Part shown: piece after piece, positions 9,097 through 64,000 of the stretch
Layout of the letters: each line of letters opens with the position of its first letter
Position numbering within the stretch: the stretch's first letter is position 1
NCBI GenBank assembly: GCA_014843695.1
Contig: CM026391.1
Coordinates: 34,285,597-34,349,596 of the forward strand
DNA: 64,000 nt
Source of the DNA: Archivesica marissinica
Taxonomy: Eukaryota; Mollusca; Bivalvia; Venerida; Vesicomyidae
Reading direction: 5' to 3'
Made by a program: the position numbers and the translations under genes
Notes under the pieces: model-generated
Seen by the model: only the letters and a program-made list of their open reading frames with translations
What the model was told of the DNA's origin: nothing
Databases searched by the model: none

Positions 9097-9219
9097 ATGT
9101 CTATTAGGATTACCAGTAAAGTAGGCTTTTTTGACGACGAGGAGGATGGAGATCATGTAATGGAAGAGCAGGAACCGGATCCGGAGGTGATAACGAAACC
9201 GACTCCTATGCACGAAATG
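9097..9219 (+). CDS. Putative first coding exon, CNBD2-like gene
   Basis: The ATG at 9097 is the first in frame after a TAG at 9073. It opens a 41-codon segment that ends exactly at a consensus donor (atg|gtaagc). The peptide starts MSIRITSKVGFFDDEEDGDH and is strongly acidic before a proline-rich end (ITKPTPMHEM). The frame breaks down after the donor, supporting an exon boundary. It ends in phase 0, which fits the phase-0 start of the exon at 52419. The link across a 43-kb intron is inference. No conserved domain is visible in this part, so alone it could be the first exon of another gene. An upstream acceptor (ttggataccag) could also make it an internal exon. Confidence 0.45.
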
Positions 9220-12545: not shown

Positions 12546-12954
12546 GTTGAAGCTATGATGTCTAAAACTCGTGTGATTATGTAATTGGTTGTAATTTTTT
12601 CTTTCTCTGACAAAAATGGCGTCCAACTTCTGATGGCGATGTACATGTTTATGCCAATAAAATGACTTGGACTTGACTTGTATTTAAAACGGCATGTACG
12701 GTTTACCTATATTGTTTTATACCGATAATGACTAAACATAAAGACATTCTTAGTTGTTAGCTTTCAATTAGCGACTGCTCCTCCGTTTTAACATGTATAT
12801 TATACTTTGAGTGCATGCAATGTATATCGGTAAATATTTATTGAATGGCTATGTACGTTGTAAATTTGATATATGTTTATATGTGCTGTAACGTGCATAG
12901 ATGAGACTGAAATAAAGATGAAAATTATGCTACATAAAATAGTAACCATTTCGT

Positions 12955-13184
12955 GGAAGTCGTGATAGCGCCGTGGATGCGAGTTCGCTTCAGGTGCGAA
13001 AGGTCCGGAGTTCGAGCCCCACTGGAGCCGTTACGATTGCGCCCTTAGGCAAGCCATTAAATTCCACATTGCCTCTTCTCTCTCCCTCGTGGCGATGGAT
13101 TCCATCAGGAATGAGGTCTCGAGAGTGATTTATATAAGGTGAAATAACTTGTTTCGCAATCGAGCGAAAATTAATTTGTATAAA
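12955..13184 (+). mobile_element. tRNA-derived SINE (family F)
   Basis: The head is tcgtgatagcgccgtggatg with B box gagttcgagccccac. The body contains tggattccatcaggaatgag and tctcgagagtgatttatata. The tail is acttgtttcgcaatcgagcg with aaatttgtataaac. Other members are at 32833-33066 and 40387-40538, a gap-truncated one at 61785-61877, and an array-expanded one at 53890-54525. Confidence 0.8.
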
Positions 13185-14247: not shown

Positions 14248-16818
14248 CTATGTATTGTCCTCATCGAACTGGACACGAGCACATGTATCTCGATGTCCAC
14301 GGCACGTGCAGGCTATGTCACATTGTAATCCGAATTTCTTGCATGAACAATTTCGAACGCATCGCTTTTTACATTTGCAGTACTTGTCTTTGTTTAGATT
14401 AGCTGGTACATGATTATTTGTCATAAGTGTAGGCTTCGTTTTTCCCAAAACGGTCGTCCATCCATATTTAAATGGATCAAGTGGACGAGGGGTAGGGTTA
14501 TCTGCTGAAACCCAAATATGGGTTTGAAAGAGTGCACGTAAAACATGTTTGAAAGCATCATCAGTTGGAGGTATAGCTTCCAAAGATTTCGTTCCCCCAT
14601 AATACATGTGTGCTCGCACTATGTTCAAGTTATCAAATGAAGCTTTTGTGTATAGGTATGTCAGTACTGGTGTGGCTGTATCGATAGTGTCACTAATCAA
14701 GTAATCAGTGACATTAGATCTTGTATCGTTACATAGACGGGCTAGTTCTGTGCCTTTGCCAGTTTCTTGAACAGCCTTCATAAACATCCGCTTTCCCTTA
14801 CCAAACATATACCCATTAGTGTCACAGCCACTTAATGCATGCATTAAAGGCAACATTTCACGTTCAGTTTGACTGAAATGGTGTACTAATTCATGAATTG
14901 GTATAGCGTAATCTTTTGTCTTGATGTATAGCTCATGTAGCCCATCCTCGCTTAACTTTTGAAACATATACATAGCTATAACTACTATATCTGTATCAGA
15001 AGCGCACACGATAACCTTTTCACAACCACTTGTTATTGCAGCTTTGGTATGTAGGAAGATCCGTGTGTCTGCCTCTTCATGGGTACTTGTTAGAAGTTTT
15101 TGAATGTCTTCAGGTGCATCGTATTCTCCTTTAGAGCCGATTACTTTCATTTTTATTCTGTTCCTGAATCCACCTGATAGATACAGATGGGTGTTATCAG
15201 GTAGCATATCCGAGCTAGATGACCAAATGTCAAATAGAAATTCTATGAGATTGGCTTTGCTATCACTATTTCTTACAATGTCATCAAAGTTTTTCATCAC
15301 CAAACCTTTTCGTACTTCATACTCTTTTGTGGAACCACCGCGCCTCTGTCTACATCCGCTTGATTCTTTTAGATTTACGTTGCCTCCATTACTGTCTTCG
15401 ATACCATATAAACCATCATACCTATCTGCTGCCAGATGGATGTGTTTGCATTGGTACTTTCGAAGAATATTTTCCAGTAGCCGTTTTGCATAAGTTTCAC
15501 TTTCTTCAGTTTGAAGCGGGGGCGATGCTCTGACCATTCCCATTACGTCAACAACTAACCCAGTTTCAAATTCTGACTGGTTGATTTCAGGTGGCCAGTC
15601 ATCCATTTCTGCTCTCTTTTTCATGATATCTAATAGGGATGCTTTGTTTCCAGTTCTCAAATAGACGCCATGGCTCTCCTGATCCATTTCACATATAGAT
15701 GGTGGATATGATCTTAGTTCATGTTTCATGAGTTCCTCCAAGTAATCAGTATCGGTGGCGTCTCTGTTGAGTTCTAGTAAAGCTCTTTTCAAAACTTTGA
15801 TTTCACTTGTTAAGTCATTCTTGGATTTGATATACTTCTTGTTTGCCTTTGGAAGCTTTTCCATATCTGTAAAGGTCTTCAGATTAAGCCTGCAAGGTTT
15901 ATTATTCTGTACATAACTGCGTATTGCATTTTCTCCAAACAGTTCTATCCCAAGTAGATCACAGGTTATTTCCTCAGTGGCTTTAAGTCCGTTTTCAATA
16001 TTTACTAACGATCTACTTTCTGAATAAGTGAACGGATTTATCATTTCCTCATGTACTGTTTCAATGATGGCTTGTCTATTCTTCACCTCTCGTTTGCGAG
16101 TAGCTACATTGTCCTCATGATGGACTATCTCGGAATCATCCAGGTGGAGCATTGCCTTTACAGCTGAGGATACTGCTGCACAAAATGGTAAGGTTACAAA
16201 CCACTTCTCCTCTGTCTGGGCCTTAAGTGTTGCTCCTTTAAGTCCTGCTTGGCCGGTTTTACCCTTTGCGTCACAGTTCTGCGAACATTCCAGAGCCATG
16301 TCCGTCCATATACCATTAAAACTGCCACCAGCTCTCTTAACTATAAAGTGTCCATGCTGGAACTGTTCTTCAACGTATGGGGCTGTTTCGGGCAAGCTTC
16401 TCATATCGTCAAGATATGTAACAATTGCTTTCACATATTTGTGGTGGTCAGCAGCGGCTATGATTTTTATCATTGAGGACACCGCTGCCAAATGTTCATT
16501 CCAAACACCCTCTCGCTCAGCATGTATATATAGAAGGACTGTTTCAATCATGGATACATATTTCATCCAAAATGCATGTGTTTTGAACTCGGATCGGATT
16601 CGGTTAAATTCATTGATTGCTGTTTTCAATTTTGACAAACAACTGCGCATTTTCGACAGAGTTTCAAGAATCTGTGCTTTGTCCTTGGTTATCAGAAATT
16701 CATTTAGAACAGTAATATTTTCACCGAGTTCTGCAAAGGTTCCAAGTTCGTCTTCAACATCCCGTTCAACGCAATAGTTTTTCAAAAGCTGTCCACCACA
16801 ACGACAACATACCTTCAT
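14248..16818 (-). pseudogene. Academ-like transposase, C-terminal piece with XPG nuclease and CXC cluster
   Basis: This is an open 856-codon stretch, though its ATG is probably not the real start because the frame continues from the piece upstream through a frameshift near 16766-16818. Around residue 100 it has HAEREGVWNEHL, a motif familiar in this metazoan family. Near 577-585 is EADTRIF, near 608 SDTDIVV, and near 659-675 HALSGCDTNGYMFGKGKR. These match the acidic EAxA, xDxD and GCD-x-GxGxK order of the XPG/FEN1 nuclease fold. Residues from about 811 carry C-x-C-x3-C-x3-C-x-C-x6-C-x3-C-x-C, close to a tesmin/TSO1 CXC domain. The reading frame is otherwise intact, so damage to the element is limited. 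Confidence 0.75.
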
Positions 16819-17161
16819 GAACTCTCATGTGTGCATTGATCGCCTGGTAGTATCCCTTTCCTGAAAGGATTTTGTTGGCTGTACCCTCCAGCATTATTTG
16901 GCTAGACACTAATAGCGTCCTAAGGCCAGATCCAGTCATAAACTTCCCAACAGCTCCAAGATAGTTCATCAAAAGATGGAAGCCTCCTAAGCGCAACACT
17001 AGATTTGGGTAATCATCTGGGGTTACCTTTCGAAGTGTGTAACTTATCTCATATATTGCTTGATCTTGTGTGATTACAGTGTGTTGCAGTCCAAGCTTGG
17101 CACTTGCTTTTATGCATATTTGCAAAGCTTCTCTTACTACATTTGGATTAGTAGGAGGACT
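16766..17161 (-). pseudogene. Academ-like transposase, middle piece
   Basis: The frame is the same as that of the upstream piece, interrupted only by TAA at 17162-17164. It encodes ITQDQAIYE, a candidate second catalytic aspartate, and then VLRLGGFHLLMNYLGAVGKF, a strongly conserved block that I recall from many repeated invertebrate proteins. It runs off into a different frame at 16766-16818, where the downstream 856-codon piece takes over, so a 1- or 2-base indel occurred there. The change lies near the A-rich run in gaaaaacta. Confidence 0.7.
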
Positions 17162-19126
17162 TTAAATGAAAGGGCAATACCCTATAGCTGTAGGTGAGGA
17201 CTTTGTCTGACTTATAGCAGCATTGAAGACTTTCCAGCCTGGACAGTCAATATCGACCTCGAGCAGCTTTGTTGGACAAAGCCTAGCTGCTGCCCAGCAC
17301 AGATTCAACTCCGAGGTGTCACCGCCTGACTCTTGGTGTAGAATCCACTCTGTGTCTACAGGGGTAATTGATTGCATGTCTCGGCGCAATTTTCGTATTT
17401 CAAATACATGATGAAGGTATTCTAGACAACCTGACTCCCCAAGACTACCCTTGCTAGATACACGTTTAGGGATACTTCCCATGGAACCCCCGTGTAACAC
17501 CTTCTCTAATTCACAGCCTTGATACATCACCATGCTGGTGACATGCATGCTTTTCCCGTCTAACGTACATTCTGAAAAGTCTAAATTGTCAATAGCATAC
17601 TGTGTAAATATTCCCGGTACGATGTTTGATGGAATGAAAATATTGTCTTCCGAGCACTTATCTGTAATATCCAGAGCAACTGATGTTAGTATTCTTTGAA
17701 GTTCTGTATAACTAATACATAGTCCTAGTCTATGTAAAACTGTCATCAAGTCCTTGCTCCTTGTCTTGTGGTATACATATACAGCAAGACCAACATGTTG
17801 TGGGGTTTTGACACCAGTTTTAAGAAATACTACATTTTGGGACAAGTTGAGAACTCTCTCATTCATCAATAGTCCTGACCTGTCATTGTTCAAAAGACAA
17901 TCATCGCAATTCACTCTGCCGTCTTTGTCTATGGGTATGTCGGCTATATCTGGTTTGTCATACAGTATAAACGCTATCAAGTTATGTAGACTATTTGGAA
18001 CTATACTACAGGCCTGATTGTAGTCAACATTCCATGAATCGTTTTCATTCTCCTTTTCGTTGCATTTCATATTCTTCAAGTCCGCCTTTATCTTTTGTGC
18101 AGCTTGAAACATCACTTTGTTCATGATATCACTCTCAGAATCATTTGGAACTTCGTCATCAGAGCTTGGCAATGCAATGTAATTATCTTCTAGATTTTGT
18201 TTAAGGTCCACCAATGCCGATATCAATTTACCTGCTGATAAAGAAGCTGAGCAAATCAGTTCGGATTTATTATTATCTTGGGGCCAGAACAGAATAGAAT
18301 CTGCATATGTTTTGCGTAGCCTTCGCTTTAGAGATTGATTCCGATAAGTTTCTGCCACTTCTGGTAACACACCTGTCTCCTTTAAGTATCTTCTGTATGT
18401 TGCATTTAGCGTATTAAGGTACGTCAGCTTTCCATTCTTTAACAAGCTTTCCATATCAGCGCACAGTTTTTTATAAGCTTCATTGTATATTGAATATTTC
18501 TCTTCTCCTGATACCGGTCTAACTTTGTTTCGCAGTATTAAATAGCAACTTCTATGATACCTGACTTCATAAGCAATCATGTCAATTGAACACACCCCGT
18601 CTCCTTGAATTCTGCGTAAAATGGTTTCATCATTTACATCATTTGCACTCTTGTAAATACTGCATTGAACCTCATTTGTCATTACCGTAACCATTTTTTC
18701 ATGTTTCTTTTTACCAGAAAGCCTTGCTTTCCCACATATGATACACATTTCTTTATATTCGAACTCCGGAATATGCTGTCTAGTAGAGTGTCTCTTTTCA
18801 CTACTAGATGATGTAACTGGCGACAACTTTCTCTTTCTAGCGTGAACATTTCGCTTACTTGTCCACGATGTGCGACACTTTTCATGCCAAACAGGATTTT
18901 GATCATAGAACACCGAGTCAGATGTTATGTCAAGTTGTAAACGTTGAGCAACGTCATCGCGTCTCGAGTTAGCTGTATCAGTAATAGTCTCAAAACTCTT
19001 TTCTTTTATTTGCTGAGGTTTTTCTTTAGTAATGGTTTGGCATATTATGCACTGCTCGAAATTTATAGTGGTTTTCAAGTTCTTTTCAGGACTGGGAAGC
19101 AGTGAAACAACATTTGAATCCATCAT
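17162..19126 (-). pseudogene. Academ-like transposase, N-terminal piece
   Basis: The ORF begins with two adjacent methionines (MMDSNVVSLLPSPEKN) and is open for 654 codons. It has two C-x2-C...H-x2-C fingers: CIIC near residue 26 with WHEKC near 80, and CIIC near 128 with YHRSC near 193. A candidate first catalytic aspartate lies in AIDNLDFSECTLDGKSMHVT near residue 510. The TAA at 17162-17164 follows YCPFI, and the frame continues as SPPTNPNVVREAL, which points to a point nonsense mutation. No intron boundary fits there. Confidence 0.72.
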
Positions 19127-19559
19127 GTAACATTTATAGTTCGATTATTCTTTTACCTGACATAAACACATCCATTAATATAATATTTTCTTCTTCAGAC
19201 AACACCTTAGCAAATGGCGGATATGTGTCAAAGGGGAGCAACTCAGTATAAACTATTTGTATACCTGTATAATATACATGTACGTAGTATGCATTACATG
19301 CAATCAATTGTATAATATATATTTGCATTCATACAATAAATAGACTGGAATCTTACTATTTGCTTAATATACAATTTTGATATTATTGAGCTTTATCATA
19401 ATTATGAAGTTTTTACTTTTTTTGGCCTGAAATGAAACTAAAATACTAAAGGGATAAATAAAAAAATACAACTAAGTAATGTTTTTAAAAAACATCTTCT
19501 ATGTGTCTGTTATTTGTATAATCCTCCAAATATTCATTATATTTGGATTTGATCCAGTA

Positions 19560-32588: not shown

Positions 32589-32832
32589 AAAATATTTACA
32601 CAACTTTAAGATGCACCCGGCCCGATTGGCCTATTTGTCACCGAATGCCTGCATAACAATATAAATGAAAGCAAGATATTATCAAAATGTCAACACAAGA
32701 ATAAAGATTCATCACATTGAACTTAGACGACTGTCAGAATGTTCTCATATAGAAAGCGAGCAGTATATTATGTCCTTACATAGTGTTACATATTACATAT
32801 CAAAACAAAGCTGATGTTTGACTGTATATATT

Positions 32833-33066
32833 TGGAAGTCGTGATAGCTCAGTGGTAGCGCGTTCGCTTCACTTGCGAAAGGCCCGGAGTTCGAGCCCCG
32901 CTGGAACCGTTACGATTGTGCCCTTATGCAAGGCATTTAAATTCCACATTGCCTCTTCTCTCTCCCTCGTGGAGATGGATTCCATCAGGAATGAGGTCTC
33001 GAGAGTGATTTATATAAGTTGAAATAACTTGTTTCGCAATCGAGCTAAAATAAATTTGTATAAACT
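32833..33066 (+). mobile_element. tRNA-derived SINE (family F), full length
   Basis: The head is tcgtgatagctcagtggtag with B box gagttcgagccccgc, very tRNA-like. The body contains ccttatgcaaggcatttaaa and tggattccatcaggaatgag, and the tail is gtttcgcaatcgagctaaaa. It is the best preserved family F copy in the window and serves as the reference for the array at 53890-54420. Confidence 0.87.
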
Positions 33067-40740: not shown

Positions 40741-43700
40741 CAGTGGCGTAGCTAGGGTATATTTTGCAGGGGGGCATATGGGGGGGCACAAGGTTCAGTG
40801 TGGGGGGCACACATTTTTAAGTGAAAACAGTCGCGGAGCAGTAAAAAGTACAGTTTATGAGCATATAGTATATTTAAACCATAAACATTCATAATTACTT
40901 TAGTCTAACAAATGATATATTATAGTCCGTCAATCGTGTATGTTTTCTCTTATTACATTATACAGTATTATATAAACATGTTCTAGTCAGTATTACATTT
41001 TCATATAATACTTCATATTTATATAAGATAAAAAAACAAACAAACAGACATGCCTACTCACTATATTTATATAAGTCCTACTTAATTCCTTGCACATCTA
41101 TATTGTATCCATTCAGTCTGATTTAGAATAGTTGGATCTTCCTATTGTTATGCTTTCTAACGAATAGATTAACAAATTCTTCCATATTGAGTTGTTTTGC
41201 TCTTTGAGGATGAATACCAATTACTCCGAGTGAAGATAGCTTTTTGTCAGACATAGTATTCCTTAAGTAGCTCTTGGTCAGTTTCATTGAGGAAAAGCTT
41301 CGTTCACATGATGCGGATGTTGGTGGCAACACAAGCGCAATGTTCAACAATTTACATAGATCTGGAAAAGCATCTCGGTACGGGAACATAAATGTGGCCA
41401 ATTGGCCAATGCTCCCGATATCAATTCCCGATGCCCGTTTGGTGTCTATTAACCGTTTTGCCTGTCGCAATTCTATGTCCAGATACTCATCGTCAATGTG
41501 ATATTGTACTGTCATCTTACTAAGCTGTCCTAGTTCTAGAAATCTGGCATTACATGGGTCTAGGGCTGAGATTGCACGAAGAAGATCGCGATTTGCACCA
41601 TCAAATCGGGAACTTAGTTCAGCTATTAATCTGTCCATCACGGGATAGTACAGTGTATGGCAGTACTCTCCAGGTAGATCTTCCTGCACACCTGTTGGTG
41701 CCATAACAATGCTGTCTTGTAGATGCCTCGGTTGTCTTCTGACTCTTCGTGGAGGCGGGATCACATCAACATCAATTACTTCACATAAATCCTTTGTTGT
41801 TGCCCAAATACCATTCCATACCTCCTCACATCGCTCATCGACTAGATCATGTTGTACCACCTCCACCAAATCTGCAGCTGCTGCTAGATCTAATGCTGGT
41901 GACTGCAGCGTATCTGATAACAGTTTGGTTCTACACAGAATGTGTGTGAACATAACTAGACATGTCACCATACCAACATCAATGTGCACCAAAAGACTTC
42001 TAGCATCATGTGCTCTCTTTCCAGTGTGACTCTCTGCTATTTCCTGCAGTGTTGCCACCACCGCCGGTAGTGTATCGAGCAATACCTTGCAGGACACATA
42101 CTGGCATGACCATCTAGTGTCGCTCAGCTTCTTGAGGGTGCGCTTTTGCTTTCCAGGAAATAGTTTTACCTGTTGTTGCAGATAGATTTCATGAGGTGTG
42201 TGTGATGATATGAACACATATAATTGTTCTAACAAAGTGAAGAAGTTGTCTGCCATTTTCACAGACTTTACACTATCTACAATAACGAGATTGAGCCTGT
42301 GATTGTAGCAGTGTATGTATATAGCTAATGGCGCAAACTTTTCTCTGAATAGCTGCTGGACACCACGATTGACACCACTCATAACAGAGGCACCATCATA
42401 AGTCTGACCAACGCAGTCTTTACAGTTAATTCCACATGTGCTCAGTACCTCACCTAACTTGTCTTTCAGATATTCCGCATTCAATTCATGAAGCCTGGTG
42501 AAATCGAGAAACTCCTCATGTACTGAGTTCTTGTATACATATCGTACGACAATAGATAGTTGCTCTTTCTTGCTGATATCTTTTGACTCATCGATCATGA
42601 CTGAGTATTGCACGCTTGAAGCCAACTCTCTACTGATTTCATCACGGATCATACTTGCTAATATAGCCAACATCTCATTCTGTATCTCCGGACTGGTGTA
42701 CTTGACCCTGTACGGCCCTCTTAGTCTATCTCTCACAACAGTATCACTTTCACTGATGAGTTCCAGTATCTCAAGAAAGTTCCCTTTGTTTGTACTGTCC
42801 ACATCCTCCTTGTGTCCTCTTTGTGCTATTTTCTGTCTCGCTGTTAGACACAACACTTTTCCTACTTGCTTGACGTAATGTCTGTTCTCATTTAGTATCT
42901 TCTCATGTGCTGATGTTAGAGCCACATCTATTGTCGCACCTGCCTTGACATGTTCTTGGAATTCCCTCCATGCACAAAATGTCAGATGGTGGTAATCACT
43001 CCGTTCATGTTGAGCGAACCCTGCATCCTTCTCAGTGGCCTTTTTCCATTGGCGATAACCAGTAGATGTGTATGTGTTCTCTGGTGGCCTTTTGTTTGGT
43101 ACTGGAAACATTCTGCAACAGAAGCAGAATACTGAATCATGGCTCACAGAATATTCCAACCATTTGTGCGTATCATACCAGGCAGACAGAAATGAACGCC
43201 GTTTTGTCCCAAATAGTCTTGAGGGGAATGCTACATTGGGTTGTGTTGGGGCTTCTCTCCTTCCACTACTAATATCAGATGGTCCTGGATTGTGTTGAGT
43301 ATCTCCTCCATGGTCTGGTTTGGGGATTACTGTCAATGTGTCAAGTTGTTGTGAGTCACTTTCATTATCTGACGAATCACTGTCTGAATAACAACCAAGC
43401 CAAACGTCCTCTTCAACGGTTGCTTGTAGCAGATCATCCACATGTTGACGTTTGCTGCATGAGTCTTTTGCATCAGCAGAACGTTTCCCAAAGAAATCTT
43501 TGATGTTGGCTTGCATATTATGCATACTCATTAATCAATTGAACTTGGAACTTCAGAACCTATAAATGTTAGAATGATTATTTTAAATACTATGTGGAAA
43601 AGATGATAATTCGTGTCCGAAGCTGGGATCTATTTTAACAATCTAAAGAGCGCAAAAATATGTATATATATGTGCTCATTTATATATGTACTGTAGTACA

Positions 43701-47236: not shown

Positions 47237-47529
47237 TAAAATATCAAAACGCGCATTGCGTTCAAAGTTTTGGAAACCTGGAGGTTAGGTCGTTGACACA
47301 AGTTGCTCCAAAATACCATCAATGGCAAATTCTTTAGGGTTATAAATAATATGTGCCAACATATAAAATCAAACGTTTCACACAAAGGTGTTTTATCAGC
47401 CTCATTCATTTCAGAAATTGGGGTACGCCAAGGCGAAAATGTATCCCCAGCACTATTTTCTATATACTTGACTTGAATGATTTACAAACATATTTATATA
47501 ACAATGGTACTGTAGGGGTAGAACTTCTT

Positions 47530-48717
47530 GATACTGAGGACTTGACACGTTGGCTTAAACGTTTAGTTCTACTGTACGCAGATGATACTGAGGACTTGAC
47601 ACGTTGGCTTAAACGTTTAGTTCTACTGTACGCAGATGATACTGAGGACTTGACACGTTGGCTTAAACTGTTAGTTCTACTGTACGCAGATGATACTGAG
47701 GACTTGACACGTTGGCTTAAACGTTTAGTTCTACTGTACGCAGATGATACTGAGGACTTGACACGTTGGCTTAAACTTTTAGTTCTACTGTACGCAGATG
47801 ATACTGAGGACTTGACACGTTGGCTTAAACCTTTAGTTCTACTGTACGCAGATGATACTGAGGACTTGACACGTTGGCTTAAACTGTTAGTTCTACTGTA
47901 CGCAGATGATACTGAGGACTTGACACGTTGGCTTAAACGTTTAGTTCTACTGTACGCAGATGATACTGAGGACTTGACACGTTGGCTTAAACGTTTAGTT
48001 CTACTGTACGCAGATGATACTGAGGACTTGACACGTTGGCTTAAACTTTTAGTTCTACTGTACGCAGATGATACTGAGGACTTGACACGTTGGCTTAAAC
48101 CTTTAGTTCTACTGTACGCAGATGATACTGAGGACTTGACACGTTGGCTTAAACTGTTAGTTCTACTGTACGCAGATGATACTGAGGACTTGACACGTTG
48201 GCTTAAACTGTTAGTTCTACTGTACGCAGATGATACTGAGGACTTGACACGTTGGCTTAAACTGTTAGTTCTACTGTACGCAGATGATACTGAGGACTTG
48301 ACACGTTGGCTTAAACCTTTAGTTCTACTGTACGCAGATGATACTGAGGACTTGACACGTTGGCTTAAACTGTTAGTTCTACTGTACGCAGATGATACTG
48401 AGGACTTGACACGTTGGCTTAAACTGTTAGTTCTACTGTACGCAGATGATACTGAGGACTTGACACGTTGGCTTAAACCTTTAGTTCTACTGTACGCATA
48501 TGATACTGAGGACTTGACACGTTGGCTTAAACGTTTAGTTCTACTGTACGCATATGATACTGAGGACTTGACACGTTGGCTTAAACGTTTAGTTCTACTG
48601 TACGCAGATGATACTGAGGACTTGACACGTTGGCTTAAACTTTTAGTTCTACTGTACGCAGATGATACTGAGGACTTGACACGTTGGCTTAAACGTTTAG
48701 TTCTACTGTACGCAGAT
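47530..48717 (+). repeat. 54-bp array repeating the RT YADD motif, 22 copies
   Basis: Each unit is 18 codons, DTEDLTRWLKxLVLLYAD, in frame with the downstream RT (LVLLYADDTILIS). Variation is almost confined to codon 11 (cgt, ctg, ctt or cct, giving Arg, Leu, Leu or Pro); two units read YAYD instead of YADD. A block Arg-Leu(ctt)-Pro-Leu(ctg) recurs (units 4-7 and 9-12), showing higher-order duplication. 1,188 bp equals exactly 22 units. The antisense strand is also open, giving an artefactual SSAYSRTK repeat. It is not expected to form a functional polymerase. Confidence 0.97.
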
Positions 48718-49747
48718 GATACCATTCTTATTTCTAACTCTGCAACAGGTTTACAAAAATGCTTGGACTCTTTTAACGACTACTGTAATGACTGGCACTT
48801 GAAGGTAAATATAAGCAAAACAAAAATAATAGTGTTTGGGGCTAGGCAATTGGGACATTTTCATGTTAAAATAGGTGATCAAAATATTGAAATAGCCCAG
48901 AGTTACCACTGCCTTGGAGTGACATTTTCTAGCAGCGGTTCTTTTCTTAAAGCCCGAAAACATGTAACAGAACAGGCAATCAAGGCCATGCACCTTAATT
49001 AAATTAATATCTCTGATCTACCCAGAAACGTTTGTAAATTTGTTAATATAATTATGAAACATTTTGCAAATTAATCCCAGTACCGCCAAAAGCATCATGC
49101 TACTATTTAATAATAATTTATATATATACAGGGTACTACAGTATCCATTATACCTAAAATCAGCTATAACAGTATGCTGTAACACTAGGATTATATCATT
49201 TATAGCGTTGGCGAACAATTACACTCAAATTCATTCATGCAAGCTTACCTGTTTGTAACCGATATCACAATTATTCCCATTCATGTTTGCACACATATTT
49301 GTCTTGACCACGTGATTTTAATGTGCCCGTGTAATCTAAAAGCGTGACCTAGTCCAGGGCTATCTACCAATCCAAGGTATGTCCAAATATTATCCCTAAG
49401 ATAAAATATTTGCTATTGCAGAAGCACAGAAAAATAATTCAGAGGCAATCTCTGAACAGGGAACATACAACTCCCGTTTTTAGGCAACATTCATATTCAA
49501 ATTACTAAATGGAACTATTTTATGGTGAAGAAATATTGTGATATTCGGCTACATATTTTCATTGCAGGGACGTATCTTGAGACACCTTTCTAGTTGAAGT
49601 GCTATCTTTCCCCCACGTTGGAATACTATATCACAATTATGTTTAGCATATCATGTATCGGAACCATTATGTATATGTTTAAATGTATTACGTTATATAT
49701 CCTCATGTTGTACATGAATGTACCTGAGTGAAATAAAAGAATATAGC

Positions 49748-52418: not shown

Positions 52419-52489
52419 CCATTCGTCCGTTTCCGTCGTATAGCCAGGGCTGTGAAGCTGCTCATCCAAGTGTGCCATGTCTGTAAGAA
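52419..52489 (+). CDS. Internal exon, CNBD2-like gene
   Basis: The acceptor is tttatattacag and the donor aa|gtaagac. The peptide is PFVRFRRIARAVKLLIQVCH plus VCKK, a basic, helix-forming segment. A segment of the form FRR-x-A-R-x-V lies upstream of the cNMP-binding domain in CNBD2-like proteins as I remember them. The exon has 71 bases: it starts in phase 0 and ends in phase 2, which matches the exon at 55049 requiring two incoming bases. An alternative donor (tct|gtaaga) would break the frame. Identification is tentative, but the exon structure is well supported. Confidence 0.6.
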
Positions 52490-52831: not shown

Positions 52832-53123
52832 GTGTGTGTTTTACGTTTATTTATCGTCGCTACCTGTTGCCCATATGAGCAACACCTCCTGGAGATATTA
52901 GTCATTTTAGATTGTTGGAGGATAGTGCAATGATACAGACAGAGACCCATTCCAGAGTCTCCACTGGTTCGTTTACGTGCACGGTGTAAAGCACCGACAC
53001 GAGCACTCGGTTTAACGTCCCATGTGAAAGACTATTCATATTATTAAGGTCAGACGGAGGATCGGACCTGCGATCCCTGGATTCCCAGTCCAGCGTGTTA
53101 CCACTGTACTACAGATCCGTCTG
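52832..53123 (-). mobile_element. SINE family C, full length
   Basis: Minus-strand copy with tail (gtgtgtgttttacgtttatt on plus), body (gtgcacggtgtaaagcaccg) and head (gatccctggattcccagtcc, then tactacagatccgtct). It closely matches the copy at 24192-24488. Confidence 0.87.
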
Positions 53124-55048: not shown

Positions 55049-55235
55049 TTTGTTGGAAGACTCTGTGTCGCAGGAAGCTTGGTTTTCACTTGTTGATAAT
55101 ATCGCTGCTGCAGCTGCATTGACAAATGATAAGAAGAAGGGAAGGGCATTCGTGACGATTGTGCCCAATGAACACAGGGAATTAGAACAACTAAGCTTCG
55201 ATGTAACTGAATATATGAGGCACAAAAAGGCAGAG
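55049..55235 (+). CDS. Internal exon, CNBD2-like gene
   Basis: A strong acceptor (cgttctttctatttctag) precedes 187 coding bases that end in gag|gtaaaa. The peptide includes LLEDSVSQEAWFSLVDNIAA, then KKKGRAFVTIVPNEHREL and LSFDVTEYMRHKKAE. The first base completes a codon from the previous exon (phase 2) and the end is phase 0, as the next exon requires. Sequence of the type LSFDVxxY before a Pro-x2-Arg-Thr-x2-Gln segment is what I expect in front of the cNMP-binding domain of CNBD2-like proteins. Opposite-strand ORFs here are shadows. Confidence 0.7.
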
Positions 55236-58239: not shown

Positions 58240-58314
58240 GACTATCTGACTGAAGAAATAAGGACTGCCATGAAACAAACACCAGGAACGCGAACAGATG
58301 AGCAGATTGTCGAG
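58240..58314 (+). CDS. Internal exon, CNBD2-like gene; donor repeated downstream
   Basis: The acceptor is tttttgtcatttcag and the donor gtcgag|gtaagt, a near-ideal U1 match. The 25 codons read DYLTEEIRTAMKQTPGTRTD then EQIVE, both ends in phase 0. The Pro-x2-Arg-Thr-x2-Gln-Ile pattern is typical of the helix leading into a cNMP-binding domain. The exon's last six bases and the donor are the seed of a 29-bp array that follows immediately. If the first donor is skipped, the next codons are gta agt agt gag tag, so read-through hits a stop after four residues. The cNMP-binding domain itself is not in the window. Confidence 0.68.
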
Positions 58315-60784
58315 GTAAGTAGTGAGTAGATCATAGTGTCGAGGTAAGTAGTGAGTAGATCAGAGTGTCGAGGTAAGTAGTGAGTAGACCAGATTGTCGA
58401 GGTAAGTAGTGAGTACATCATAGTGTCGAGGTAAGTAGTGAGTAGATCATAGTGTCGAGGTAAGTAGTGAGTAGATCAGAGTGTCGAGGTAAGTAGTGAG
58501 TAGATCATAGTGTCGAGGTAAGTAGTGAGTAGATCAGAGTGTCGAGGTAAGTAGTGAGTATATCAGAGTGTCGAGGTAAGTAGTGAGTAGATCAGAGTGT
58601 CGAGGTAAGTAGTGAGTAGATCATAGTGTCGAGGTAAGTAGTGAGTAGATCATAGTGTCGAGGTAAGTAGTGAGTAGATCAGAGTGTCGAGGTAAGTAGT
58701 GAGTAGATCAGAGTGTCGAGGTAAGTAGTGAGTAGATCAGAGTGTCGAGGTAAGTAGTGAGTAGATCAGAGTGTCGAGGTAAGTAGTGAGTAGATCAGAT
58801 GTCGAGGTAAGTAGTGAGTAGATCAGAGTGTCGAGGTAAGTAGTGAGTAGATCAGATTGTCGAGGTAAGTAGTGAGTAGATCAGAGTGTCGAGGTAAGTA
58901 GTGAGTAGATCAGAGTGTCGAGGTAAGTAGTGAGTAGATCATAGTGTCGAGGTAAGTAGTGAGTAGATCAGAGTGTCGAGGTAAGTAGTGAGTAGATCAT
59001 AGTGTCGAGGTAAGTAGTGAGTAGATCATAGTGTCGAGGTAAGTAGTGAGTAGATCATAGTGTCGAGGTAAGTAGTGAGTAGATCAGATTGTCGAGGTAA
59101 GTAGTGAGTAGATCAGAGTGTCGAGGTAAGTAGTGAGTAGATCATAGTGTCGAGGTAAGTAGTGAGTAGATCAGAGTGTCGAGGTAAGTAGTGAGTAGAT
59201 CATAGTGTCGAGGTAAGTAGTGAGTAGATCATAGTGTCGAGGTAAGTAGTGAGTAGATCATAGTGTCGAGGTAAGTAGTGAGTAGATCATAGTGTCGAGG
59301 TAAGTAGTGAGTAGATCATAGTGTCGAGGTAAGTAGTGAGTAGATCAGAGTGTCGAAATAAGTCGTGAGTAGATCAGATTGTCAGATTGTCGAGGTAAGT
59401 AGTGAGTAGACCAGAGTGTCGAGATAAGTAGTGAGTAGATCAGATTGTCGAGGTAAGTAGTGAGTAGATCAGATTGTCGAGGTAAGTAGTGAGTAGACCA
59501 GAGTGTCGAGGTAAGTAGTGAGTAGATCATAGTGTCGAGGTAAGTAGTTAGTAGATCAGAGTGTCGAGGTAAGTAGTGAGTAGATCAGATTGTCGAGGTA
59601 AGTAGTGAGTAGATCAGATTGTCGAGGTAAGTAGTGAGTAGACCAGAGTGTCGAGGTAAGTAGTGAGTAGATCATAGTGTCGAGGTAAGTAGTGAGTACA
59701 TCATAGTGTCGAGGTAAGTAGTGAGTAGATCATAGTGTCGAGGTAAGTAGTGAGTAGATCAGAGTGTCGAGGTAAGTAGTGAGTAGATCATAGTGTCGAG
59801 GTAAGTAGTGAGTAGATCAGAGTGTCGAGGTAAGTAGTGAGTAGATCATAGTGTCGAGGTAAGTAATGAGTAGATCAAATTGTCGAGGTAAGTAGTGAGT
59901 AGACCAGAGTGTCGAGGTAAGTATTGAGTAGATCAGAGTGTCGAGGTAAGTAGTGAGTAGATCAGAGTGTCGAGGTAAGTAGTGAGTAGATCAGAGTGTC
60001 GAGGTAAGTAGTGAGTAGATCAGAGTGTCGAGGTAAGTAGTGAGTAGATCAGAGTGTCGAGGTAAGTAGTGAGTAGATCAGAGTGTCGAGGTAAGTAGTG
60101 AGTAGATCAGAGTGTCGAGGTAAGTAGTGAGTAGATCAGAGTGTCGAGGTAAGTAGTGAGTAGATCATAGTGTCGAGGTAAGTAGTGAGTAGATCAGAGT
60201 GTCGAGGTAAGTAGTGATTAGACCAGAGTGTCGAGGTAAGTAGTGAGTAGATCATAGTGTCGAGGTAAGTAGTGAGTAGATCATAGTGTCGAGGTAAGTA
60301 GTGAGTAGATCAGAGTGTCGAGGTAAGTAGTGAGTAGATCAGAGTGTCGAGGTAAGTAGTGAGTAGATCAGAGTGTCGAGGTAAGTAGTGAGTAGATCAG
60401 ATGTCGAGGTAAGTAGTGAGTAGATCATAGTGTCGAGGTAAGTAGTGAGTAGATCATAGTGTCGAGGTAAGTAGTGAGTAGATCAGAGTGTCGAGGTAAG
60501 TAGTGAGTAGATCAGATTGTCGAGGTAAGTAGTGAGTAGATCAGAGTGTCGAGGTAAGTAGTGAGGATCAGAGTGTCGAGGTAAGTAGTGAGTAGATCAG
60601 AGTGTCGAGGTAAGTAGTGAGTAGACACAGATGTCGAGGTAAGTAGTGAGTAGATCAGATTGTCGAGGTAAGTAGTGAGTAGATCAGAGTGTCGAGGTAA
60701 GTAGTGAGTAGATCAGAGTGTCGAGGTAAGTAGTGAGTAGATCAGAATGTCGAGGTAAGTAGTGAGTAGATCAGAGTGTCGAGG
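58309..60784 (+). repeat. 29-bp array repeating a 5' splice site, about 85 copies
   Basis: The unit gtaagtagtgagtagatcag plus agtgtcgag (29 bp) begins at the donor of the exon at 58240 and repeats to the assembly gap. Each unit ends gtcgag and the next starts gtaagt, so nearly every unit recreates the exon-like end and consensus donor. Variants are cagagtg/catagtg/cagattg. Short or altered units occur near 58799, 59355-59390, 60401, 60563 and 60625. The true array length is unknown because of the gap. Confidence 0.97.
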
Positions 60785-61784
60785 NNNNNNNNNNNNNNNN
60801 NNNNNNNNNNNNNNNNNNNNNNNNNNNNNNNNNNNNNNNNNNNNNNNNNNNNNNNNNNNNNNNNNNNNNNNNNNNNNNNNNNNNNNNNNNNNNNNNNNNN
60901 NNNNNNNNNNNNNNNNNNNNNNNNNNNNNNNNNNNNNNNNNNNNNNNNNNNNNNNNNNNNNNNNNNNNNNNNNNNNNNNNNNNNNNNNNNNNNNNNNNNN
61001 NNNNNNNNNNNNNNNNNNNNNNNNNNNNNNNNNNNNNNNNNNNNNNNNNNNNNNNNNNNNNNNNNNNNNNNNNNNNNNNNNNNNNNNNNNNNNNNNNNNN
61101 NNNNNNNNNNNNNNNNNNNNNNNNNNNNNNNNNNNNNNNNNNNNNNNNNNNNNNNNNNNNNNNNNNNNNNNNNNNNNNNNNNNNNNNNNNNNNNNNNNNN
61201 NNNNNNNNNNNNNNNNNNNNNNNNNNNNNNNNNNNNNNNNNNNNNNNNNNNNNNNNNNNNNNNNNNNNNNNNNNNNNNNNNNNNNNNNNNNNNNNNNNNN
61301 NNNNNNNNNNNNNNNNNNNNNNNNNNNNNNNNNNNNNNNNNNNNNNNNNNNNNNNNNNNNNNNNNNNNNNNNNNNNNNNNNNNNNNNNNNNNNNNNNNNN
61401 NNNNNNNNNNNNNNNNNNNNNNNNNNNNNNNNNNNNNNNNNNNNNNNNNNNNNNNNNNNNNNNNNNNNNNNNNNNNNNNNNNNNNNNNNNNNNNNNNNNN
61501 NNNNNNNNNNNNNNNNNNNNNNNNNNNNNNNNNNNNNNNNNNNNNNNNNNNNNNNNNNNNNNNNNNNNNNNNNNNNNNNNNNNNNNNNNNNNNNNNNNNN
61601 NNNNNNNNNNNNNNNNNNNNNNNNNNNNNNNNNNNNNNNNNNNNNNNNNNNNNNNNNNNNNNNNNNNNNNNNNNNNNNNNNNNNNNNNNNNNNNNNNNNN
61701 NNNNNNNNNNNNNNNNNNNNNNNNNNNNNNNNNNNNNNNNNNNNNNNNNNNNNNNNNNNNNNNNNNNNNNNNNNNNNNNNNNNN
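60785..61784. other. Assembly gap, 1000 N
   Basis: Exactly 1000 unknown bases. The left side stops inside the 29-bp array and the right side starts inside a SINE, so the gap was probably caused by the array. The true size and the relative orientation of the two sides are not given by the sequence. Confidence 0.99.
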
Positions 61785-61877
61785 GGGCACAATCGTAACG
61801 GCTCCAGCGGGGCTTGAATTCCGGACCTTTCGCACATGAAGCGAACGCGCATCCACTGCGCTACCACGACTTCCACA
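61785..61877 (-). mobile_element. SINE family F, truncated by the gap
   Basis: On the minus strand: tggaagtcgtggtagcgcag, tggatgcgcgttcgcttcat, and a B box of aattcaagccccgct type, then ggagccgttacgattgtgcc where the gap begins. Bases 61878-62090 hold no supported feature. Confidence 0.8.
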
Positions 61878-62090
61878 ATACAATACAATAATGTAATAAA
61901 TGAAAAAGCAAACATAATTGCATCACTATATACTTCATGATATTGTACTCAAAGACAAAATTATACACACATACGTATATGTTTTCAAAGAGAGGAAATA
62001 TAATTGAGTATACGGTTGTCTAGGCTTCAGATTTAAATCACAAGTGGTTCTAATTTAGTTATATAAAACTTATACGTTTATATTTATATA

Positions 62091-62640
62091 CCTAAGCTAT
62101 TTCGTAATCCTGCCCAAGGGGACTTACTTCCGTTGCCATCTGCGATGAAACCTAAGATATTTCGTAATCCTGCCCAAGGGGACTTACTTCCGTTGCCATC
62201 TGCGATGAAACCTAAGATATTTCGTAATCCTGCCCAAGGTGACTTACTTCCGTTGCCATCTGCGATGAAACCTAAGATATTTCGTAATCCTGCCCAATGT
62301 GACTTACTTCCGTTGCCATCTGCGATGAAACCTAAGATATTTCGTAATCCTGCCCAAGGGCACTTACTTCCGTTGCCATCTGCGATGAAACCTAAGATAT
62401 TTCGTAATCCTGCCCAAGGGAACTTACTTCCGTTGCCATCTGCGATGAAACCTAAGATATTTCGTAATCCTGCCCAAGGGCACTTACGTCCGTTGCCATC
62501 TGCGATGAAACCTAAGATATTTCGTAATCCTGCCCAAGGTGACTTACTTCCGGTGCCATCTGCGATGAAATCTAAGATATTTCGTAATCCTGCCCAAGGT
62601 GACTTACTTCCGTTGCCATCTGCGATGAAATCTAAGATCT
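62091..62640 (-). repeat. 60-bp array carrying an exon end and splice donor, nine copies
   Basis: Exact 60-bp period. On the minus strand each unit reads atcttagatttcatcgcaga, tggcaacggaagtaagtcac, cttgggcaggattacgaaat or a close variant. In every unit cggaa|gtaagt is a plausible donor, and the preceding bases equal the end of the exon at 62608-62752. 60 is a multiple of three and the unit lacks stops in that frame, so the minus strand stays open through all nine copies (ILDFIADGNGSKSPWAGLRN per unit). The plus strand is also open by chance. Confidence 0.96.
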
Positions 62641-62752
62641 TCTTTTTCTTATGATACGTAGACTGTTCCTCCATCTGTTGTTGTATTTTCTTTCTTCTAG
62701 CCTTGACGTCCACCCTTCCTGGTTCCAGATGCTTCAATACCCGAGCCTCGCC
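62608..62752 (-). CDS. Minus-strand exon of an unidentified gene
   Basis: The acceptor is cgtttcag|ggcgag and the first donor cggaa|gtaagt. 145 coding bases start in phase 0 and end in phase 1. The peptide begins GEARVLKHLEPGRVDVKARR and continues KKIQQQMEEQSTYHKKKK, then ILDFIADGNG. It is highly charged and likely helical. I do not recognise the family. Both edges touch tandem arrays: the 60-bp array repeats its 3' end and donor, and a 35-bp array stops about 10 bp from its acceptor. Phase 0 at its start is compatible with the exon at 58240-58314, but that exon is on the other strand. Confidence 0.55.
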
Positions 62753-62757
62753 CTGAA

Positions 62758-64000
62758 ACGACAGTAATGCCGTTATCGAGAACATTAAAGACTCGACAGT
62801 AATGCCGTTATCGAGAACATTAAAGACTCGACAGTAATGCCGTTATCGAGAACATTAAAGACTCGACAGTAATGCCGTTATCGAGAACATTAAAGACTCG
62901 ACAGTAATGCCGTTATCGAGAACATTAAAGACTCGACAGTAATGCCGTTATCGAGAACATTAACGGTTCGACAGTAATGCCGTTATCGAGAACATTAAAG
63001 GTTCGACAGTAATTGCCGTTATCGAGAACTTTAAAGACTCGACAGTAATGCCGTTATCGAGAACATTAAAGACTCGACAGTAATGCCGTTATCGAGAACA
63101 TTAAAGTCGACAGTAATGCCGTTATCGAGAACATTAACGGTTCGACAGTAATGCCGTTATCGAGAACAGTTAATACTCGACAGTAATGCCGTTATCGAGA
63201 ACAGTTAATACTCGACAGTAATGTCGTTATCGAGAACATTAAAGGTTCGACAGTAATGCCGTTATCGAGAACATTAAAGACTCGACAGTAATGCCGTTAT
63301 CGAGAACATTAAAGACTCGACAGTAATGCCGTTATCGAGAACATTAAAGGTTCGACAGCAATGCCGTTATCGAGAACTTTAAAGACTCGGCAGTAATGCC
63401 GTTATCGAGAACATTAAAGACTCGACAGTAATGCCGTTAACGAGAACATTAAAGACTCGACAGTAATGCCGTTATCGAGAACATTAACGGTTCGACAGTA
63501 ATGCCGTTATCGAGAACAGTTAATACTCGACAGTAATGCCGTTATCGAGAACAGTTAATACTCGACAGTAATGCCGTTATCGAGAACAGTTAATACTCGA
63601 CAGTAATGTCGTTATCGAGAACAGTTAATACTCGACAGTAATGCCGTTATCGAGAACATTAAAGGTTCGACAGTAATGCCGTTATCGAGAACATTAAAGA
63701 CTCGACAGTAATGCCGTTATCGAGAACATTAAAGACTCGACAGTAATGCCGTTATCGAGAACATTAAAGGTTCGACAGTAATGCCGTTATCGAGAACATT
63801 AAAGGTTCGACAGTAATGCCGTTATCGAGAACATTAAAGGTTCGACAGTAATGCCGTTATCGAGAACAGTTAATACTCGACAGTAATGCCGTTATCGAGA
63901 ACAGTTAATACTCGACAGTAATGCCGTTATCGAGAACAGTTAATACTCGACAGTAATGCCGTTATCGAGAACATTAAAGACTCGACAGTAATGCCGTTAT
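62758..64000. repeat. 35-bp array, continuing past the window
   Basis: About 35 copies of acagtaatgccgttatcgag plus aacattaaagactcg. Four main variants at the unit end (attaaagactcg, attaaaggttcg, attaacggttcg, agttaatactcg) follow each other in recurring blocks, for example near 63130-63350 and 63480-63770. It abuts the acceptor of the exon at 62608-62752. Confidence 0.97.

Follow-up and report, generated by a model that had tools for sequence, protein, structure and literature searches.

A nine-fold repeated splice donor in a CNBD2-like gene of the bivalve Archivesica marissinica: an exon/intron-boundary minisatellite probably tolerated by splicing

The question raised by this locus is whether a splice donor that stands nine times in a row lengthens the encoded protein or is tolerated as a repeat. 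The locus lies in a stretch of 64,000 nucleotides from the vesicomyid bivalve Archivesica marissinica (assembly GCA_014843695.1, contig CM026391.1, forward-strand positions 34,285,597 to 34,349,596), which was analysed as a whole and is called the window below; positions are counted from its first base. An earlier note on this DNA had proposed that a minus-strand exon could be closed at any of nine donors spaced 60 bp apart, and could thus give a ladder of isoforms differing by 20-residue modules. Our analysis indicates that the array is probably a repeat tolerated by splicing rather than a maker of longer proteins.

The host gene and its exons in the window

The exon in question (62608..62752, minus strand) was delimited by protein homology. 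It measures 145 nt (48 codons plus one base), has phase 0 at its 5' boundary and phase 1 at its 3' boundary, and ends with GGAA at donor 1. A 222-residue read-through of exon and array, scored on residues 1-68, matched one protein, P0001; P0001 as query then gave 11 proteins and a composite query 31, together 36 different proteins. The named relatives are all from molluscs (Ruditapes, Mactra, Mya, Dreissena, Mercenaria, Potamilus, Mizuhopecten, Haliotis and others), the closest being those of Ruditapes, Mercenaria, Mactra and Mya. Three relatives (Mya, Elysia, Plakobranchus) bear the name CNBD2-like or cyclic nucleotide-binding domain-containing protein 2-like, and most others are called uncharacterized or hypothetical. 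A segment equivalent to the exon is present in 34 of the 36 relatives, P0009 and P0011 being the two without it, and all 48 exon residues are identical in P0002 and in the Ruditapes protein P0012, and 47 of 48 in a Mercenaria protein (P0019). The coding exon with its donor, as described in the earlier note, is thus borne out, and by its homology the exon is part of a gene of the CNBD2-like cyclic-nucleotide-binding family.

The cNMP-binding domain PF00027 occurs once each in P0012, P0019 and P0016, ahead of the position of the exon, and the matching exons lie outside the window. In P0001 a putative second cNMP-binding fold scores below the Pfam cut-off (19 vs 27.5 bits), and no PDB match was obtained for this protein up to E = 1. 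The exon peptide by itself has no match in Pfam. Pfam matches of the 220-aa array read-through were weak and look like repeat artefacts, and a PDB search returned a single match, to a ribosomal protein (E = 5.4), which is not meaningful. In an AlphaFold2 model of P0012 (mean pLDDT 66.8, pTM 0.38) the exon corresponds to residues 323-370 and ends just behind a predicted helix (354-368), and pLDDT falls below 50 over residues 383-392 and 394-504. Parts of this model were matched by Foldseek to PKA and PKG at their tandem cyclic-nucleotide-binding domains, with a best E of 6e-13 and TM-scores of at most 0.20 by query and 0.43 by target among the 50 matches listed. We infer that the exon belongs to a second cyclic-nucleotide-binding fold. 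Behind the exon, the relatives carry a linker of 68-367 residues (31 of 36 measurable), and the model places the insertion site of the array at the start of this long and variable linker, which is predicted to be disordered.

Four further exons were placed on the plus strand by tblastn with six relatives. Exon 1 (9097..9219) contains the start codon and begins with MSIRITSKVGFFDDEE; exon 2 (52419..52489) begins with PFVRFRRIARAVKLLIQVCHVCK, its 3' limit being set from a GTAAGA donor and the continuous frame; exon 3 (55049..55235) extends from LLEDSVSQEAWFSLVDN to YMRHKKAE and shares 56 of 62 residues with P0012; and exon 4 (58240..58314) encodes DYLTEEIRTAMKQTPGTRTDEQIVE, with 19 of 25 residues identical to P0012. 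When exons 1 to 4 are joined, they read as one uninterrupted frame of 152 codons, and AG and GT signals flank the joints. Within the window, tblastn detected neither the counterpart of P0012 residues about 151-322 nor that of any residue following exon 62608-62752, and searches with P0001 and with six other relatives yielded no downstream exon there. The plus-strand exons are separated from the minus-strand exon by a run of exactly 1,000 N (60785..61784). The contig starting at 61785 was probably placed in the wrong orientation; this is the simplest reading. A true inversion would have disrupted the gene, with which the perfect preservation of the exon is at odds.

Two donor arrays among the minisatellites of the window

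Tandem Repeats Finder reports a minisatellite at 62090..62638 with a period of 60, 9.1 copies and 96% match. Read on the minus strand, each full copy consists of the 31 last bases of the exon followed by 29 intron bases that include the donor. The G of the donor GT lies at 62607, 62547, 62487, 62427, 62367, 62307, 62247, 62187 and 62127, and GTAAGT is intact in all nine copies, preceded by GGAA in eight of them and by GGAC in copy 3. Donor 1 (62602..62607) is the one implied by the relatives; use of donor 9, the most distal (62122..62127), would add 480 nt or 160 codons. With donor n the exon would measure 145+60(n-1) nt (145, 205 ... 625), in the same frame throughout and stop-free as far as donor 9, beyond which the reading meets a stop after 14 further codons. 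Nine copies, each with an exon end and a donor, and a 20-codon unit that keeps the frame had likewise been claimed in the earlier note, and both descriptions hold at all nine donors.

The array as such is far above chance. An open frame, by contrast, comes cheaply: when unit length, exon part and GTAAGT were held fixed and the remaining 23 intron bases were shuffled, 48% of the shuffles stayed open. Given that, in addition, the unit length is a multiple of three in 11 of the 24 arrays listed for the window, the frame-keeping of the 60-bp array is unremarkable. On its other side the exon is bordered by the acceptor TTTCAG (62753..62758, minus strand), whose six bases are all that separates it from a 35-bp minisatellite (62759..64000, minus strand; 35.5 copies) which forms the 3' end of the upstream intron and runs off the window. 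The 145-nt exon is thus squeezed between two minisatellites, one ending six bases before it and the other lying behind it.

A second donor array is found at exon 4. This exon ends with ...CAG ATT GTC GAG|GTAAGTAGTGAGTAG, and from there on a 29-bp unit with an identical donor is repeated. The resulting plus-strand minisatellite (58303..60784; 85.4 copies, 95% match, Tandem Repeats Finder) is seeded on the exon 4/donor boundary and ends at the N gap, so that its size of about 85 copies is a lower bound on its length. GAG|GTAAGT occurs 83 times in it, and of the 85 complete copies 83 have kept it intact. The donor core of this array looks strikingly conserved when the copies are anchored on GTAAGT, which is circular; an unanchored alignment counts two broken donors in 85 complete copies, and we treat it as uninformative. 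The unit length of 29 is not divisible by three, and the intron opens with the codons GTA AGT AGT GAG TAG; splicing at any of the 82 later donors therefore brings a stop into the product.

Arrays of this general type are frequent here. The list merged from Tandem Repeats Finder rows comprises 24 arrays in the window, with units of 15-99 bp, that cover 25.3 kb or 40% of the called bases; the birth of arrays from unique sequence is therefore common in this stretch. GTAAGT is absent, on either strand, from the other 22 of the 24 listed arrays. Two of the five donors lie in array seeds (P = 0.005 under random seed placement); given that the minus-strand donor had been picked by the earlier note, the probability that at least one of the remaining four would do so is 0.09. 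Donors thus appear enriched among array seeds, which is a post hoc observation and suggestive only.

Several other elements were noted in the window. A 54-bp array (47529-48722, plus strand; 22 copies of 18 codons in frame) repeats a segment bearing LVLLYADDT and lies in an open frame (47350-48999, plus strand) whose end matches the reverse transcriptase PF00078; we consider it a coding minisatellite inside a retrotransposon. The other Pfam matches of this frame look like repeat artefacts. An 803-residue open frame at 41126-43534 (minus strand) contains DUF4371 and hAT dimerisation domains, as in a hAT-type transposon gene. Two long open frames on the minus strand, 14251-16824 (858 residues, no Pfam match up to E = 0.01) and 17165-19144 (660 residues), are possibly another mobile element. 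A dispersed short repeat with similar translations is present at 61785-61922 (minus strand), 12946-13128 and 32822-33022 (plus strand); it is tRNA-like by eye only, and the sole Rfam tRNA match (53063-53118) lies away from it.

Choice among the donors

The closest relatives read GNG|RKSCY at the junction. In 30 of the 34 relatives with the exon the junction is followed by R, K, I, T or S, residues whose codons can start with A, and in the other four (P0025, P0026, P0029 and P0031) by L or V; among the 30 compatible relatives, P0015 lacks one residue and P0024 diverges straight after the junction. Codons starting with A fit a phase-1 junction at donor 1, and on these alignments the ancestral junction was most likely that at donor 1. 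ILDFIADG, as in the close relatives, is encoded by copies 1 and 2, and ILGFIADG by copies 3-9; copies 1 and 2 alone match at D, which points to copy 1 as the original edge. Based on these data, a 60-bp boundary stretch (31 exon bases, the donor and the following intron bases) has evidently been amplified to nine copies, of which, judging by their order, the first remained the exon edge and the later ones fell into the intron.

We consider it likely that the 60-bp array is an exon/intron-boundary minisatellite of the kind named 'mirage', at which donor 1 is mostly used and the protein remains unchanged. Donor 1 would most likely serve in most transcripts, the other copies leaving with the intron. 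The first of many equal donors might be chosen through exon definition, or through first-come binding of U1 in the order of transcription. The preserved frame would be fortuitous, and occasional use of a later donor would probably be harmless, as it would only lengthen a linker predicted to be disordered. The locus shows the features of a mirage, namely minisatellite-like repeats, a unit lying across an exon/intron boundary of a homology-supported gene, and splice signals in most units. This reading is further favoured by the agreement of exon identity and phase-1 junction with the relatives, by the single open frame that exons 1 to 4 form, and by the 83-donor sister array. At exon 4, given that all 82 later donors lead to a stop, the full-length protein needs donor 1 of 83 if the gene is functional; no other argument speaks as strongly, in our view, for splicing at donor 1 in the nine-donor array too, and for an accidental origin of its frame-keeping.

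Some observations weigh against this reading, for which donor use is itself deduced from the genomic sequence. Donor 1 pairs with U1 at -5.8 kcal/mol, as do six other copies, and copies 3 and 5 do slightly better (-6.8 and -6.7 kcal/mol), so that strength does not mark out donor 1. Structure gives no ground to prefer any donor: the RNA fold of about four array units was not more stable than those of shuffled sequences (z = 1.47), 187 of 200 of which equalled or exceeded it in stability. Where two donors are comparable, a preference for the intron-proximal one is reported (PMC6002489), which would predict use of the later donors. Moreover, human repeats at exon boundaries are described as altering splicing (PMC2812944), which shifts the odds slightly toward isoforms of variable length.

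That the nine donors do yield a ladder, adding 0 to 8 modules of 20 residues with a set altered by repeat number, we consider unlikely. The frame is kept and free of stops at all nine donors. U1 is reported to protect 23 nt upstream and 12 nt downstream of a donor (PMC6002489); with a spacing of 60 nt all nine donors could be occupied together, which does not apply to neighbouring donors of the 29-bp array. In the model the insertion point lies after a helix, at the start of the poorly modelled, length-variable linker. A frame-keeping splice ladder has been documented for UBC (PMC10809524), and tandem repeats at human boundaries are reported to give alternative splicing (PMC2812944).

The claim that the cell puts the array to this use nevertheless fares poorly. 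None of the eight module words was found in any of the 36 relatives, and the 34 that carry the exon continue past it without a module. This absence is weak evidence, because short-read contigs tend to break in tandem arrays like this one and many of the relatives are gene models. The nine copies differ from their consensus by seven distinct changes, one synonymous and six non-synonymous; without constraint 23% of the changes should be synonymous (P = 0.49 for one or fewer), and the copies thus appear to bear no sign of protein-level selection, in a comparison of little power. The sister array at exon 4, being out of frame, is unable to work as a ladder, which indicates that frame-keeping is no general design in this gene. 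Finally, splicing is reported to proceed undisturbed in the mirages of lancelets (PMC3087553, PMC3902484). A wider scenario holds that donors are preferred seeds of minisatellites, that a ladder dependent on copy number lengthens the disordered linker in the second cNMP-binding fold, and that the 29-bp array, with at least 83 donors, acts as an on/off control by truncation; we hold this combination to be distinctly improbable.

It is very unlikely, by our estimate, that the arrays damage the gene, be it through competing donors or through the strand break, and leave a pseudogene or a poorly expressed allele. The opposite strands of exons 1-4 and exon 62608-62752 would agree with such damage, and a preference for intron-proximal donors, as reported elsewhere (PMC6002489), would give truncated products at exon 4. 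However, all five exons are open with AG/GT signals where expected, the 48/48 identity to Ruditapes fits ongoing constraint, and the strand change coincides with the 1,000-N gap, as a scaffolding flip would give. Scarcely credible is a further reading in which the array units are small introns and micro-exons spliced internally, each unit providing an acceptor-like ATCTTAGGTTTCATCGCAG, then 12 coding bases, then a donor. A CAG site preceded by 65% pyrimidines does recur eight times with ATGG behind it, and most units continue with ATGGCAACGGAA|GTAAGT; intron gain from boundary repeats has been proposed for human duplicated genes (PMC2812944) and for amphioxus globins. Yet the pyrimidine tract is short and mixed, no good branch site is seen by eye, the introns would measure about 48 nt unless units were skipped, and no relative was seen to carry a four-residue insert at the junction.

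Comparison with known systems

The closest likeness to the preferred reading, a boundary minisatellite spliced mostly at donor 1, is found in amphioxus, where tandem repeats spanning exon/intron boundaries have been named mirages and described for Adh3, globin, TnC and PGBD5. As reported, many of their units hold splice signals, array length varies and regular splicing is undisturbed; for PGBD5 this claim is argued from homology, without RNA over the repeats (PMC3087553, PMC3902484). The present arrays share with them tandem units that span exon, splice site and intron, many of which keep their signals. The PGBD5 repeat, moreover, also has a unit of 60 bp and adjoins a 5' splice site; its copy number is 2 or 7, depending on which of two assemblies is read (PMC3087553, PMC3902484). 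The present case differs in that a bivalve gene carries two arrays at two donors, one of about 85 copies compared with the 2-7 given for lancelets (PMC3087553, PMC3902484), and in that one array keeps an open frame whereas the other does not.

In human genes of segmental duplications, variable tandem repeats at exon-intron boundaries are described as giving rise to alternative splicing and novel introns, and for 66% of the intron changes a transcript retaining the repeat is also reported (PMC2812944). Expansion of a minisatellite at an exon-intron boundary, with a possible effect on splicing, is common to both systems. In the human case, transcripts from primate paralogs support both the novel introns and the retained repeats, and the units average 30 bp in four copies, whereas the copy number at exon 4 here is higher (PMC2812944). 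Intron gain by tandem genomic duplication (PMC4974935) likewise involves tandem duplication within a gene; here, an existing boundary was multiplied rather than a new intron formed.

Human UBC consists of coding ubiquitin monomers in which AGGT serves as donor and acceptor, and its ladder of products was shown by RT-PCR (PMC10809524). In both genes splice sites recur at regular intervals that keep the frame, an arrangement from which such a ladder could arise (PMC10809524). The bivalve array differs from UBC in that its donor reads GGAA|GT or GGAC|GT, about half of its unit is intron, and it is known from genomic DNA. The dual-specific AGGT is thus absent from the 60-bp donors; it is present at the 83 donors of the 29-bp array, which does not keep the frame.

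Competition among donors for U1 has been described for ER-alpha exon 1, where two comparable donors lie 33 nt apart and the intron-proximal one is used; why this position is favoured is, according to that source, not known (PMC6002489). Nearby donors of equal strength are common to both cases, two in ER-alpha (PMC6002489) compared with nine and 83 here. Multiple occupancy by U1 is reported to alter donor choice and not efficiency, unless the sites are very close (PMC5389562). If the arrays are real and the gene works, a single gene would contain 83 and nine near-identical donors in a row, and would offer a direct test of an old question, namely by what rule the spliceosome selects one of several equal donors that lie close together. 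With 29 nt shorter and 60 nt longer than the 23+12 nt quoted for the U1 footprint, the two spacings would provide a useful contrast.

For molluscs, a 27-bp intronic minisatellite of variable length has been reported in abalone, in an account that, in the text available, describes no repeat at a boundary (PMC6905558); a word-match search of the open-access literature found no boundary minisatellite in a mollusc. The arrays thus belong to a known though little-noticed kind, which as far as could be seen is new to this animal group and is here doubled within one gene. If the arrays are real and the gene works, a mollusc joins the lancelets and the human duplicated genes, in which boundary minisatellites have been linked to intron gain or altered splicing.
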